Assembly (NCBI RefSeq): GCF_001293685.1
Contig: NZ_BCAG01000003.1
Location: 2,272,501 to 2,336,500, forward strand
Direction: 5' to 3'
DNA from: Desulfatitalea tepidiphila
Lineage (GTDB): Bacteria > Desulfobacterota > Desulfobacteria > Desulfobacterales > Desulfosarcinaceae
Length of the DNA stretch: 64,000 nt
The notes under the pieces were generated by a model. The model did not search any database. It saw only the letters and a list, made by a program, of their open reading frames with translations, and was not told where the DNA came from. Position 1 is the stretch's first letter, and every line of letters starts with the position of its first letter. A program made the translations under genes and the position numbers. Shown in pieces: positions 3,777 to 61,597 of this stretch.

Positions 3777-4199
3777 CGTGCCTCCCCGAAAACTACCCCC
3801 TCATTTATGTAAATGCAGGCTAACTATCGATAAACAATATTATTATCCTGCGCCATGGTCATCAGTCCGTTTCCTATCGTCCGCCCCCATCAATGGCACA
3901 TGGCACCGTTGAATGGGGCATTGCATCGACGGGCCGGAACAAGCATGCCTTTCCAGGCAACCTCGTTTTGTAATTCTTTATAATTATCGATCGGTTACCA
4001 GTTTTTGTGTCCGATATGGAGATGTGACAATTGATGGGGACAATGCGGGGTTTTCACGAATGTACGGATGAGAAGCGATCTAACGGAAAGCTTCCTTGCG
4101 ACCAGGTAACCCCCCGCCGAAATGCCGTGTTGGCAGGCCTTTGATCCAAAAAGGCAAGTGGGCGCTTTGCGGCTTTTTTAGGCTTTTCTGTACGAGCAG

Positions 4200-4385
4200 A
4201 ACATGCACACCAAAACCGTGCTCAGCTCCCTTGAGAAAAGTGTTGGTTCAAAGCACATCTTCCAATCACGCGCATGGCAGGGGGTATCACCCAGATTTTA
4301 TAACCATCACACGTACGTTTTTTCGGCTTTATGGAGACCTGTCCGCTGCTGTCATAACAACGCAACAAGTCTGTTTCAGGGGCTT
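4200..4385 (-). ncRNA. ssrS: Candidate 6S RNA
   Basis: 6S RNA binds the sigma70 RNA polymerase holoenzyme and mimics an open promoter. The 620-bp gap between zapA and rny has no credible gene. On the minus strand it contains CTTTGAACCAACAC followed 6 nt later by CAAGGGAGC, resembling the conserved 3' side of proteobacterial 6S RNAs. The 5' part CTGAAACAGAC (about 4370-4379) can pair with GTTCTGCTCGTACAG (about 4187-4203) to close a rod about 185 nt long. The position directly after zapA matches known zapA-ssrS synteny. Ends are approximate; the call rests on motif recall, synteny and hand folding. The rest of the gap (3777-4199) shows nothing recognisable beyond the rny leader. Confidence 0.6.
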
Positions 4386-15527: not shown

Positions 15528-15683
15528 CTACTTAGTGCCCATCCACAATGTCCAATTGTCCCGATATCTGCGTTGCGCGAAAAATTTAATCCTCGGAATA
15601 TCAGCCATATGCCTGCGGTTAAATTTTTCGTGCGCCTTGATCTCGGTCCAATTTGCCTATTTGTGGACAGACACTACTTAAAG
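15528..15683. repeat. MITE-like quasi-palindromic element, copy A
   Basis: About 155 bp with imperfect terminal inverted repeats (left TTAGTGCCCATCCACAA, right end complementary to AAGTAGTGTCTGTCCACAA) and a quasi-palindromic body. A second copy in inverted orientation lies at 27599-27754, matching over its whole length with scattered changes. It has no coding capacity. This copy lies between mreD and mrdA and overlaps the last codons of mreD, whose TAA is inside the element's end. A non-autonomous mobile element or a REP-like unit are both possible. Confidence 0.8.
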
Positions 15684-27598: not shown

Positions 27599-27754
27599 CT
27601 ACTTAGTGTCCGTCCACAAACAGGCAAATTTGGTTTAGATCAAGGCGTGCGAAAAATTTTACCGCAGGCATATAGCTGATATTCCGAGGATAAAATTTTG
27701 AGCAGAACGCAGATATCGGGCAAATTGGCCATTTGTGGATGGGCACTACTTAAA
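27599..27754. repeat. MITE-like quasi-palindromic element, copy B (inverted relative to copy A)
   Basis: Reverse-complement counterpart of 15528-15683: the same ends (TTAGTGTCCGTCCACAA and, on the other side, complement of AAGTAGTGCCCATCCACAA) and the same body with scattered changes. Begins 9 bp after the stop of the beta-barrel gene and separates it from the convergent CsgG-like lipoprotein gene. Confidence 0.8.
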
Positions 27755-36055: not shown

Positions 36056-36120
36056 CGGAGATGCTCCCGTGGCTTTTTTTGACCCTATAAAACAAATGAT
36101 CACCCCGAACAAGCTGGTTT

Positions 36121-36425
36121 CCAGCAGTTCTAACTGAATGTGGTTCATCTTGAAGGGCATGCATTCCAGTTGTTTGATAAAAAAATTCGCAAGGCAATGG
36201 AGATGGCAGGCCCGGGTGGGACAGGTGGCCAGGGCCACGTGAGCCTGCGGTCTTAGAGCCAGTTAAATGCAAACGGCGGACAAGCGGCCCAGACTGTTTG
36301 AGCGCAGCGAGTTTCTGGGCCGCCCGCAGTGCATTTTACTGGCTCTTGACCGCTTGGCGTGTGGCATCGGCCACCTGCCCCACCCGGGCCGGGTTTAATG
36401 AATGGCATTCAGTTAGAATCGCTGG
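36121..36425 (-). mobile_element. Nested-palindrome repeat element, full copy 1
   Basis: About 305 bp bounded by inverted repeats (CCAGCAGTTCTAACTGAATG at the left; complement of the same at the right). Inside, long outer arms (GGCCCGGGTGGG / CCCACCCGGGCC) enclose an inner hairpin whose tip is GCGGCCCAGA, a 20-nt loop, TCTGGGCCGC. The same element lies at 51981-52283 in the other orientation. No gene is encoded. It fills the divergent gap between the cyclase and tex; the remaining 36426-36572 is the tex leader. Confidence 0.88.
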
Positions 36426-36572
36426 CCGGTTTCATCCACCCTTGACAAGCATGCGGCTCAGCGCATATAGCTCGGGGCACTTTTTCAGCGAACAGGAGCA
36501 ATCAGGACAACCTCGTCGACATCATCGTCCATCCGCCATATCATCGATCAACGCATGTCCGGAGCTTTTTCC

Positions 36573-38885
36573 ATGAATGTTCAGCATGTCACCACCATCA
36601 GCACCGAATTGGGAATTTTACCTCGCCAGATCGAGGCAGTGGCCGCTCTCTTGTCCGAAGGCGCCACCGTACCGTTTATCGCCCGTTACCGTAAAGAGGC
36701 GACCGGCAGCCTGGACGAAGTCCAGATCACCTCGGTGCGGGACCGACTGGGCCAGTTGGCCGAATTGGACGGGCGCAAAGAGGCCATCCTGGCCAGCCTG
36801 GAAAAACATGGCCATCTCAATGACGAACTGAAGGCCAAAGTCCTTGCCGCAGAAACCATGAGCGTGCTGGAGGACATCTATTTGCCCTACCGTCCCAAGC
36901 GGCGCACCAAAGCGACCATCGCCAGGGAAAAAGGCCTCGAGCCGTTGGCCTTGCAGCTCATGGCCCAGGAAGGGGCCGATCCCGTTCAGATGGCGCAGAC
37001 CTTTGTGGACGCGGAAAAGGGGGTCGTCACCATCGACGAGGCACTGGAAGGGGCCCGCCATATTCTGGCCGAAATGATCAACGAAGATGAAACCGCCCGA
37101 TCGCTGCTGCGGGCACTCTTTGCCGAACGCGCCGTGATCCATAGCTCAGTGGTCGCGGGCAAGGAGGTCGAGGGGGCCAAGTTCAAGGATTATTTTGACT
37201 GGCACGAAACCGCTGCCACCGCGCCCTCTCATCGAATCCTGGCCATGCGACGCGGCGAGCGCGAGGAGGTACTCTCGCTGAGCATACTGCCCGAAGAAAC
37301 CGAGGCGTTGCTCATTCTGGAAAAGCTCTTCGTCAAGGGCGAGGGCGCGGACAGCCAACAGGTCACAGCCGCCGTCCAGGACAGCTACAAGCGGTTGCTG
37401 TCGCGATCCTTGGAGACCGAATTGCGGCTCCACCTCAAGGAACGTGCCGATGCCGAAGCGATCCGGGTATTCGCCGACAACCTGCGCGAACTGTTGCTGG
37501 CGCCGCCGTTGGGGGCCAAGCGCGTGATGGGCATCGATCCGGGTTACCGCACGGGCTGCAAGGTGGTTTGCCTGGACCGCCAGGGCAAACTGCTGCACCA
37601 CACGACCATCTTTCCCCATACTGGGCAGGGTCAGGCGCAACAGGCCGCCGACACTGTTCAAAAATTATGCGCCCAGTTCGATATCGAAGCCGTGGCCATC
37701 GGTAACGGCACGGCCGGAAGGGAGACCGAAACCTTCGTTCGCGGCCTGGGACTAGCGTCCAAGGTGATCGTCCTCATGGTGAACGAAAGCGGTGCTTCGG
37801 TCTATTCGGCCTCCGAGGTGGCCCGCGATGAATTTCCCGATCAGGATGTGACCGTGCGCGGTTCGGTTTCCATTGCCCGGCGCCTGATGGACCCCTTGGC
37901 CGAACTGGTCAAAATCGATCCCAAGGCGATCGGCGTGGGTCAGTATCAGCACGATGTGGATCAAAACGACCTGAAACGCACCCTGGACGATGTGGTGGTG
38001 AGCTGCGTCAATGCGGTGGGCGTGGATCTCAACCGCGCCAGCAACCAACTGCTGACCTATGTTTCCGGCCTGGGCCCCCAATTGGCCCGTAACATCGTCA
38101 AACAGCGCGACACAACAGGCCCATTCCGCAGCCGCGAAGCGCTCAAGGAGGTGCCTCGCCTGGGTCCCAAAGCCTTCGAACAAGCCGCCGGCTTTTTGCG
38201 AATTTCCAATGGCGAGCACCCATTGGATGCCAGCGCCGTACATCCGGAAAGCTACACCATCGTGGATGCCATGGCCGCGGACCTGGGCTGCACGGTGCAA
38301 GATTTGATGCAGGATGCTCAGCTGCGAAACCGCATCGACATTCAACGTTACGTCAACGACAAGGTGGGACTGCCGACCTTGACCGATATCATGGAAGAAC
38401 TGGCCAAACCCGGCCGCGATCCGCGCCAAAATTTCGAGGCATTCGCCTTTGCCGGCCATGTCACTGAAATGAAAGACTTGCAGGTCGGCATGCAGCTGCC
38501 GGGCATCGTGACCAACGTGACCCGGTTCGGCGCCTTTGTCGACATCGGCGTACATCAGGACGGTTTGGTGCATGTCAGTGAGCTGGCCGACCGTTTCGTC
38601 AAGGATCCGACCGAGGTGGTCAAGGTGCAGCAGAAGGTGACAGTGACCGTTCTTGAGGTCGATCTGGAACGCAAGCGCATCGGCCTTTCCATGCGCACCG
38701 GTCGCAAGCCCGAGGCGACGGCCAGGCCGACCGCAAAAGCGGATAGGACCAGACCGAAAGCCAACGCCAAATCCAAACCGGCCGCCAGGCATACGGGACA
38801 AAAGCCCAGGCCCGAGGTCAAACAACCGTTCCACAACCCCTTGGCCGAAGCATTGGCGGATCTCACCCACCGGAAACGCGAATGA
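36573..38885 (+). CDS. tex: Tex family transcription accessory/RNA-binding protein
   Basis: Nucleic-acid-binding protein related to Spt6, linked to transcription and RNA metabolism. The 770 aa contain the N-terminal Tex helical region ([19 protein letters not shown]), the YqgF-like fold ([14 protein letters not shown]), helix-hairpin-helix motifs ([31 protein letters not shown]) and a C-terminal S1 domain ([20 protein letters not shown]), followed by a basic tail. The ATG at 36573 has GGAG eight bases upstream; an ATG six codons earlier is less likely. Confidence 0.94.
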
Positions 38886-51849: not shown

Positions 51850-51980
51850 GATGAAGACATCCGTTACTGGGGGTTTACTCGATCCAGGGATGCCCGGCAC
51901 CCCCCATTTGATTCCATAGCCATCCGCTCCCGATCGCCGGATGCGGGATGGACTAATATTACACGGTCTGATGATCAGGC

Positions 51981-52283
51981 AGGAATTCTAAATGAATTCT
52001 ATTCATTGGATCTGGCGTGGGTGGAACAGGTGGCCGATGCCACACGCCAAGCGGTCAAGTGCCGCTAAGAATGCACGGCGGGCGGCCCAGAAACTCGCTG
52101 CGCTCAAACAGTCTGGGCCGCTTGTCCGCCGTTCGCATTCGAGCGGCACTAAGACCGCAGGCGTACGTGGCCCTGGCCACCTGCTCCACCCACGCCTGCC
52201 ATCTCCTTTGCAATGCGAATTTTATTATCAAACTCCTTTTGTAATGCATGCCCTTCAGGGTGAGTCACATTCGGTTGGAGCCG
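51981..52283 (+). mobile_element. Nested-palindrome repeat element, full copy 2
   Basis: Same element as 36121-36425 in opposite orientation: ends around GGAATTCTAAATGAAT and the complement of CGGCTCCAACCGAATG; outer arms GGCGTGGGTGGA/TCCACCCACGCC; inner arms AGTGCCGCT/AGCGGCACT; hairpin tip identical to copy 1. Flanked by a 13-bp direct repeat CTGATGATCAGGC (51968-51980 and 52284-52296); the right repeat contains the stop codon of the next gene. No coding capacity. Confidence 0.88.
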
Positions 52284-52290
52284 CTGATGA

Positions 52291-55816: not shown

Positions 55817-55860
55817 CGGCGATTCTGACTGAATGCCATTCATAAGACCCGGCGTGGATA
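55817..55860. repeat. End fragment of the nested-palindrome element
   Basis: GATTCTGACTGAATGCCATT and the next ~13 bases match the end of the 305-bp element (compare the complement of 36390-36420) with two or three changes; the rest of the element is missing. It sits in the 346-bp gap between mrp and the outer-membrane protein gene, which otherwise shows nothing recognisable. Confidence 0.7.
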
Positions 55861-56004
55861 GAGTTGTTGGCAGGTCACGATCCGGACCGAAGGCGCGCCG
55901 TCGACTCAAGGGGATTGCATGGTGTCTTGGCATGACGCCAAAACGCCGGTAGCCCCGCTGACCACCGGCGCGTCGCTTGCATGGCCAAAGGACCCTATGC
56001 ATTG

Positions 56005-61373: not shown

Positions 61374-61433
61374 CAAAAAAACTGCTCCTTTACTATTAAT
61401 GTCGATCGGGGACAAGCCCCGTCGGGCAAGCTT

Positions 61434-61597
61434 CGCGATTCTAACCGGATGCTGTTCTTTTTAAAACCGGCGTGAGTCGAACAGTTGGCCAGGGCCACCC
61501 TCGCCTGCAATCTCCGTCGCAATGCGAGTTTTTATCAAACTCCTTCTTTAATGCATGCCCTTCAAGGTAAATCACATTCAGTTAGAACTGCTGGCCA
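61434..61597 (+). repeat. Internally deleted nested-palindrome element
   Basis: About 160 bp with both ends of the 305-bp element (GATTCTAACC at the left; CATTCAGTTAGAACTGCTGG at the right) and the ~80-bp conserved right segment (TAATGCATGCCCTTCAAGGT), but the central hairpin and most of the outer arms are missing. Lies between the divergent DUF4911 gene and recJ; the rest of 61374-61710 holds only promoter regions. Confidence 0.78.

Follow-up and report, generated by a model that had tools for sequence, protein, structure and literature searches.

A MITE of Desulfatitalea tepidiphila inserted upstream of promoters carries a nested hairpin whose loop recurs in other phyla

Introduction

Why should a palindrome without a gene keep its arms complementary in copies that differ in the letters of those arms? 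The question is raised by an element of roughly 305 bp, two copies of which lie in opposite orientations in a 64,000-nucleotide stretch of the Desulfatitalea tepidiphila genome (contig NZ_BCAG01000003.1, positions 2,272,501 to 2,336,500), referred to here as the window. An earlier note, made from the letters of this DNA, had described an identical hairpin tip in the two copies and two sets of compensatory arms between them, and had proposed two causes, namely selection on the structure or template-switch correction between the arms. Here we ask what kind of element this is, how it reached its sites and what keeps its structure.

Results

Two complete copies and their remnants in the window

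With boundaries set by the ends of the element and by the target duplication, the copies in the window and their parts are as follows.

36122-36424, plus strand: complete copy 1, 303 bp, with inverted ends, linker and nested-hairpin core
36113-36121: left target duplication of copy 1, 9 bp, GCTGGTTTC
36425-36433: right target duplication of copy 1, 9 bp, GCCGGTTTC, matching the left one at 8/9 positions
36122-36140, plus strand: left terminal inverted repeat of copy 1, CAGCAGTTCTAACTGAATG
36406-36424, plus strand: right terminal inverted repeat of copy 1, CATTCAGTTAGAATCGCTG
36285-36322, plus strand: tip hairpin of copy 1, scoring 60.1 bits with a covariance model of 30 hairpins from other genomes
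36295-36314, plus strand: conserved 20-nt loop of copy 1, TGTTTGAGCGCAGCGAGTTT
36442-36447, plus strand: TTGACA, a -35-like box exactly 17 bp past the right end of copy 1
36555-38885, plus strand: Tex-like gene, downstream of copy 1 and its TTGACA
51980-52286, minus strand: complete copy 2, 307 bp, with a perfect 9-bp duplication, CCTGATCAT, on both sides
52091-52110, minus strand: conserved loop of copy 2
about 55817-55871, minus strand: fragment of the 3' end of the element
about 61433-61593, minus strand: shortened derivative of about 160 bp without the tip hairpin, duplication not recognisable

Both copies are present where they had been reported (36121-36425 and 51981-52283), with boundaries that were 1-3 bases off, and the earlier description of the identical tip hairpin and of the two sets of compensatory arms holds. 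The 3'-end fragment and the shortened derivative are additions to what the earlier note had listed. The folding z-scores are -14.1 for copy 1 and -11.8 for copy 2, and not one of the 100 dinucleotide shuffles made of each copy folded as well as the original. Copy 2 has no TTGACA at +17. Over residues 1-457, taken from locus L001, the Tex-like gene has matches to Tex_N, the Tex central region and Tex_YqgF.

Elsewhere in the window we found a 6S RNA (4107-4286, minus strand; Rfam RF00013, 108 bits) and a second family of dispersed palindromic repeats (TAGTGCCCATCCACAAATGGCCAATTTGCCCGATATCTGCG...) at 15547-15676 and 27604-27733, matched over 130 nt at 85% in opposite orientation. Letters like those of this second family also flank some copies of the element elsewhere in the genome, as judged by eye.

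Copy number and anatomy across the genome

Using the 24-nt tip as a pattern with up to three mismatches, we detected 108 matches in the D. tepidiphila genome (5.6 Mb, 98% complete; 56 on one strand and 52 on the other, listed at 100 of the 108 places), and none with the reversed tip. The element is therefore not confined to two copies, a possibility on which the earlier reading would have foundered. With copy 1 as the query, 40 of 210 candidates in the same genome were scored, and all 40 matched at least 250 of the 305 bases. From the fetched loci we took 107 tip matches, which represent 104 distinct copies; six more at locus edges were dropped.

Alignment of the copies shows an element of about 305 bp that runs from the left end, CAGCAATTCTAACTGAATGTGATTCACC, through a linker and nested helices with the tip hairpin to the right end, GCATTCAGTTAGAATCGCTG. 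Among the 104 copies, the right end is recognisable at its expected place in 97, the left end in 83 and both ends in 80. Within the linker, TTTGATAAAAA is moderately conserved and, by eye, not convincing as an internal promoter. A coding reading of the core was dropped, since indels break the frame in the core alignment (by eye); the previous statement that the element has no coding capacity is not contradicted.

Searching with the ends, we clustered 87 elements from the 100 listed of 144 end matches. In 53 of them a listed tip is present with at most one mismatch, and the other 34 are mostly truncated or shortened, a few having a more-changed or unlisted tip. Twenty loci around ends without a listed tip gave the same picture of truncated or shortened elements, plus a few whose tip was changed or unlisted. 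Tip-less shortened derivatives measure 68, 108, 136 and 168-175 bp, and seven internal-deletion derivatives (68-175 bp) keep both ends. Within the genus, copy 2 is matched in 10 of 11 genomes (its own included), mostly over the tip region; genome G007 holds the full element at 83-93% identity.

Ends, target duplication and insertion upstream of promoters

The terminal inverted repeats are 19 bp long (CAGCAATTCTAACTGAATG / CATTCAGTTAGAATCGCTG) with a terminal C, and the consensus left and right ends agree in 18 of 19 letters. Outside them, the flanks of the 79 copies with both ends placed resemble each other at a length of exactly 9 bp (identity 0.774 versus 0.268 on random pairing); lengths of 5-7 and 10-13 bp are at the random level, and 8 bp is barely higher (0.294 versus 0.250). 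The duplication is perfect (9/9) in 18 of the 79 copies. Target duplications are a mark of DNA movement by DDE-type staggered insertion, and the 9-bp duplication implies that the element moves as DNA in this manner. Being short, non-coding, multicopy and bounded by inverted ends and a target duplication, the element is a MITE and in all these respects like other bacterial MITEs.

Insertion occurs in one orientation and places the right end 17 bp upstream of the -35 box in sigma70-type promoters. TTGACA with at most one mismatch is found in 36 of 97 copies at offset 17 (counted from the right end) and in no more than three at any other offset, and the commonest place of a TATAAT-like box is offset 40 (9 of 97 copies), leaving a spacer of 17 bp. 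At least four of the six TTGACA letters are matched at +17 in 44 of 79 copies, versus 3.9% at control offsets, and at least five in 31 of 79 (39%), versus 0.4%. The left end faces a TTGACA-type box in 4 of 83 copies. The genes downstream are varied: a scan of 40 of 41 candidates gave 55 families, and among the 25 of these that were listed only the thiolase and acetyl-CoA hydrolase families recur, with two members each.

A sister family in genomes G005 and G009 shares the CAGCAATTCT end and has other internal sequence. For its eight distinct elements with both ends, the duplication matches at 7/9 or better in six, and TTGACA at +17 is matched in at least five letters in four elements and in at least four letters in seven. 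Exceptions among the sister elements are L286, whose TTGACA stands at +19 instead of +17, and L297, which lacks a duplication.

Relation to p-MULT elements and the question of the transposase

Guerillot et al. (2014; PMC3942029) describe p-MULT elements with a terminal C on repeats of 18-39 bp and with duplications of 8-9 bp. In their account, two p-MULT lineages insert upstream of sigmaA promoters, at 15-17 bp for TnGBS and related ISs, and orientation is tied to unlike ends, ISKra4-type elements with 83-100% alike ends having promoters on both sides. Measured against the TnGBS/ISLre2 and ISKra4 groups, our element is alike in its inverted ends (its 19 bp fall within the 18-39 bp range), terminal C, duplication length and insertion 15-17 bp before a -35 box, and it shares the single insertion orientation with TnGBS/ISLre2. 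It is unlike them in that it has no transposase gene inside, none with matching ends having been found in the genome, and in that it carries a structured core. Moreover, its ends are near-symmetric and yet insertion is oriented, so that it fits the p-MULT orientation rule imperfectly. We conclude that the carrier belongs, as a new and non-autonomous relative, with promoter-seeking elements of a known kind. The earlier note could name no family; this holds only in part, since the ends, 9-bp duplication and promoter spacing resemble those of promoter-targeting Mutator-like elements. These three features had escaped it, as had the recurrence of the tip in other phyla.

A DDE Mutator-like transposase is not encoded inside the element, in whose approximately 305 bp no frame survives the indels (by eye). 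The ISLre2 model gave no match in the D. tepidiphila genome and was also silent in 14 of 14 controls, so that absence from this genome is not shown by it. Three weak matches to the ISKra4 model in the same genome are IS256-like by reading and have other ends, and the ISKra4 loci of relatives were rejected as mobilising partner on account of their differing ends. No autonomous relative with matching ends was seen near the 100 listed of 144 end matches in this 98% complete genome. Among the ORFs beside 12 lone-end loci no transposase was recognised, the single ORF searched against families being a threonyl-tRNA synthetase. The element differs from other bacterial MITEs in that an autonomous partner was not found, and in that its core is maintained after insertion, as described below.

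Fold and covariation of the core

Applied to the 79 copies with both ends, RNAalifold returned 53 core pairs, 11 of which change on both sides, extending to further copies the covariation seen between the two in the window. Cells of the core pairs form standard pairs in 97.6% of cases versus at most 45.8% when the partners are slid, and the earlier view that the structure is being kept was right. Two-sided changes occur in 151 cells, versus a mean of 41.8 in shuffles (none of 500 reached the observed number) and at most 15 with slid partners. All of them lie in helices 1 and 5, whereas the tip helix varies mainly through G-T.

To compare rare pairs, we considered those pairs whose commonest state is Watson-Crick, each rare type making up at most 12% and the core being defined as positions 87-179. 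The core has 95 rare G-T and 51 rare A-C cells; for the terminal repeats the corresponding figures are 72 and 70 (Fisher p 0.017). These cells count sequences and not independent events; as distinct pair types, the core excess is 43 to 32. In the core arm 137-152 the ratio is 13:13. Other mismatches make up 106 of 5519 cells in the core and 129 of 1629 in the terminal repeats. Common G-T pairs are found in the core at 102/261, 103/260, 115/249, 121/242 and 147/218 and also in the ends at 6/301, 18/289 and 20/287, and there is one common A-C pair in the core (89/275, in 17 of 78); such common wobble states do not separate the core from the terminal repeats. We take the excess of rare G-T pairs as a hint that pairing may be strand-biased, which would point to a folded plus strand, either RNA or single-stranded DNA.

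The loop stays constant after insertion

Once a MITE has inserted, its interior is commonly assumed to decay. A target duplication starts out as two identical copies, and their mismatch therefore dates each copy of the element. In the 68 of 79 copies whose duplication matches at 5/9 or better, the pairs mismatch at 96 of 612 sites (15.7%), i.e., about 7.8% per copy. The 20-nt loops of the same copies, all found through the tip, mismatch at 6 of 1360 sites (0.44%) and are perfect in 65 of 68 cases, where a rate of 7.8% per site would leave about 21% perfect, allowing for the three-mismatch limit of the search. A near-invariant loop beside roughly 16% duplication divergence requires either selection in place or a process that renews only the loop. 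Over the whole tip-found set, 99 of 104 loops are perfect. Among copies found through their ends, a set that includes some damaged or shortened elements, 70 of 82 loops are perfect; the linker has diverged by 17%, the terminal repeats by 11-13%, the tip stem by about 4% and the loop by 2.4%.

The arms might be kept complementary by template switching or by ectopic gene conversion centred on the hairpin, with no function needed. The long near-perfect palindromes, the seven internal-deletion derivatives with both ends, and arm alleles that by eye form blocks of several changes all speak for such a process. However, the step from 0.44% in the loop (tip-found copies) to about 4% in the tip stem (end-found copies) is too sharp to be easily explained by conversion tracts, and constancy differs from one helix to the next without following the distance from the tip. 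Furthermore, rare G-T pairs are in excess in the core while rare pairs are symmetric in the ends, and hairpins of other phyla pair with unrelated stems round the same loop (see below). The sharp step between loop and stem and the core-only excess of rare G-T lead us to favour selection over template-switch correction, the two causes between which the earlier note had not chosen, and to regard a template-based origin of the covariation as unlikely.

A second possibility is that the structure serves transposition only, the copies being young and their loops undecayed. This is a multicopy mobile element, after all, and 18 of 79 copies have a perfect duplication. Yet a divergence of about 16% per duplication pair in 68 copies means that most copies are not young. 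Moreover, 24 tip copies have no end at the expected place, and 23 of these loops are perfect, with at least 8 of 10 tip-stem pairs Watson-Crick in 24 of 24; in five of them an end-like sequence stands 100-200 nt further out, so that at least these may be interrupted and not truncated. Finally, among the seven tip-less derivatives with both ends in the D. tepidiphila genome, the duplication matches at 8/9 or better in three and TTGACA at +17 (better side) is matched in at least five of six letters in five, so that insertion probably does not require the tip, unless its loss came later. We consider it quite unlikely that transposition accounts for the structure, and selection at the inserted site remains the favoured reading.

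Loops are perfect in 42 of 44 copies with a promoter box versus 33 of 35 without one. They are kept equally in both groups, and a role tied to the downstream promoter is therefore not supported. Upstream ORFs, called crudely, point into the element in 41 of the 79 copies versus away from it in 38.

Recurrence of the loop in other phyla

At least 117 stretches of genome_contigs contain an exact match to the 18-nt core of the loop. Its carriers include isolates of Pseudomonadota, Bacteroidota and Bacillota as well as MAGs labelled as Nitrospira-, Desulfo-, Melainabacteria-, Calditrichaeota- and Aquificaceae-type, for which binning errors are possible. After hits less than 40 nt from a locus end and repeated stems had been dropped, 80 distinct hairpins were left. 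Their loop identity is given by construction, and the test is the pairing around the loop. At least seven of the eight pairs beside the loop are Watson-Crick in 69 of the 80 (86%), versus 3.3% with random partners, and fewer than six in five of the 80; the 75 stems with at least six pairs contain 10 G-T, two A-C and 24 other mismatches. The two commonest registers hold 61 of the 80 hairpins, with pairing of 96.3% (30 rows) and 94.0% (31 rows), and in both register alignments all eight pairs show two-sided changes. The loop variants give TGTYYGAGCGNAGCGAGTTY, with one G/A change seen.

A covariance model made from the 30-row alignment, one row of which (L242, Desulfatitalea sp. UBA4791) carries the tip of the element family itself, finds both window copies at 60.1 bits. 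Within the phylum it matches 16 of 297 genomes; of the fifteen other than D. tepidiphila, six have at least four matches and the rest one or two. The exact loop pattern with N occurs in 7 of the 297 genomes, the reversed control for this pattern not being independent, as reversing the loop with N = A leaves it unchanged.

NTG stands before the loop in 77 of the 80 distinct hairpins. The loop could accordingly be read as a translated leader peptide (NTG followed by FERSEF) with the hairpin as its attenuator, and by reading the N falls on the third position in an Arg codon, with T/C synonymous at two sites. Other loop variants (TCT, CAA), however, are non-synonymous, the frame after the loop varies between lineages, and indels break the frame in the element family (both by eye), which makes a leader peptide very unlikely. 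Spurious ORFs over the repeat, including FERSEF-type ones, do appear among the clusters beside the hairpins of other genomes. When a gene family recurring beside these hairpins was looked for, the clusters comprised at most seven loci and were aminotransferases and ABC transporters by reading.

Dispersed hairpins in many copies are also the hallmark of REP/BIME-type repeats, which a RAYT (Y1) transposase spreads on single-stranded hairpins, and a one-sided bulge and the hint of strand-biased pairing would suit them as well. The element differs from REP/RAYT repeats in its target duplication, inverted ends and multi-phylum loop. Inverted ends together with duplications of 9 bp indicate transposition of the DDE kind, and no link to Y1 was found: none of the four Y1_Tnp loci in the genome holds the tip or an end, and the three usable as query (not L323) matched no ORF near the other-genome hairpins. 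Spread by a RAYT is hence extremely unlikely, and DDE-type movement is the preferred reading.

Like the structured RNAs of Rfam, the hairpin has covarying helices and a conserved loop, here known from DNA alone; unlike them, it has no match over the hairpin above the gathering score, in the window and 17 other loci. A lax Rfam search of eight loci gave four weak matches (E 0.03-0.9), all outside the hairpin. The exact loop has no match among IMG/VR viral contigs. Four lineages compared by eye for common element ends in other phyla differ in extent and share no ends. The papers listed for FERSEF-type strings and for the loop core looked unrelated, and a description of the hairpin was not found in the consulted portions of the literature on REP, MITE and intergenic repeats (including PMC12306157). 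The cargo hairpin, with a loop that recurs in other phyla and is kept after insertion, is the surprising part of the element.

In many of the other lineages (L150, L156, L167, L177, L158, L153 and others) a second conserved part follows about 60-130 nt 3' of the loop. By eye it resembles an H-type pseudoknot, e.g., CTTGAT..CTTCTTTT..ATCAAG..AAAAGAAG, and is absent from the element in the window.

Discussion

What would a promoter-seeking MITE do with a maintained hairpin? The explanation that we consider probable, on the strength of sequence comparison, is that the MITE is mobilised in the p-MULT manner and that its cargo hairpin acts in place as a folded single strand bound via the loop. A DDE transposase following the p-MULT promoter-seeking rule would mobilise the element in trans, and the element inserts in its fixed orientation, right end 17 bp before a sigma70-type -35 box, duplicating 9 bp. 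The cargo is a nested hairpin of about 190 nt whose tip belongs to the multi-phylum hairpin family. After insertion the terminal repeats diverge considerably, but the loop is maintained together with most pairs of the tip stem, even where an end is missing from its expected place, and the core would most likely act at its site as a folded plus strand to which a putative host factor binds through the loop. The wobble pairing and the stable large fold make RNA the more likely form of this strand, rather than single-stranded DNA. The explanation is weakened by the common wobble states, which do not separate core from ends, and by ends that are more alike than the p-MULT rule would have them.

More tentatively, and with somewhat less than even odds in our view, the tip may mark a class of structured nucleic acid that has yet to be described. 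Such a class would be defined by the loop UGUYYGAGCGNAGCGAGUUY and freely changing stems, and its genomes would be patchily distributed, with isolates from three phyla and MAGs labelled as five others; it would have a widespread binding factor and travel on different mobile carriers, in this genus on a promoter-seeking MITE, and be kept by selection at about 100 sites. When a loop of about 20 nt recurs in Bacteroidota, Pseudomonadota and Desulfobacterota around completely different stems, the usual cause is a shared binding partner. The 9-bp duplication supplies a built-in clock at about 100 sites, by which maintenance after insertion can be measured directly. Spurious FERSEF peptides are widespread in databases, and the partner of the loop, if found, would explain a class of dispersed repeats that can turn up as such peptides in gene predictions.

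Some further arrangements of the tip were noted by eye. In genus and order relatives (L119, L120, L130, L133 and L142), the core TTTTTAGTGCCGCT ... AGCGGCACTTGAAA, or a close version of it, is embedded in other long palindromes that lack the CAGCAATTCT ends, which looks like an exchange of the core between different carriers. In a Tissierellia MAG (L198), a promoter-like pair TTGACA...TATCAT lies close downstream of the hairpin, a hint that promoter proximity may extend beyond the genus. The family is otherwise dispersed, but one genome (G039, C1:889279-890660) has four tip hairpins on one strand within 1.4 kb.
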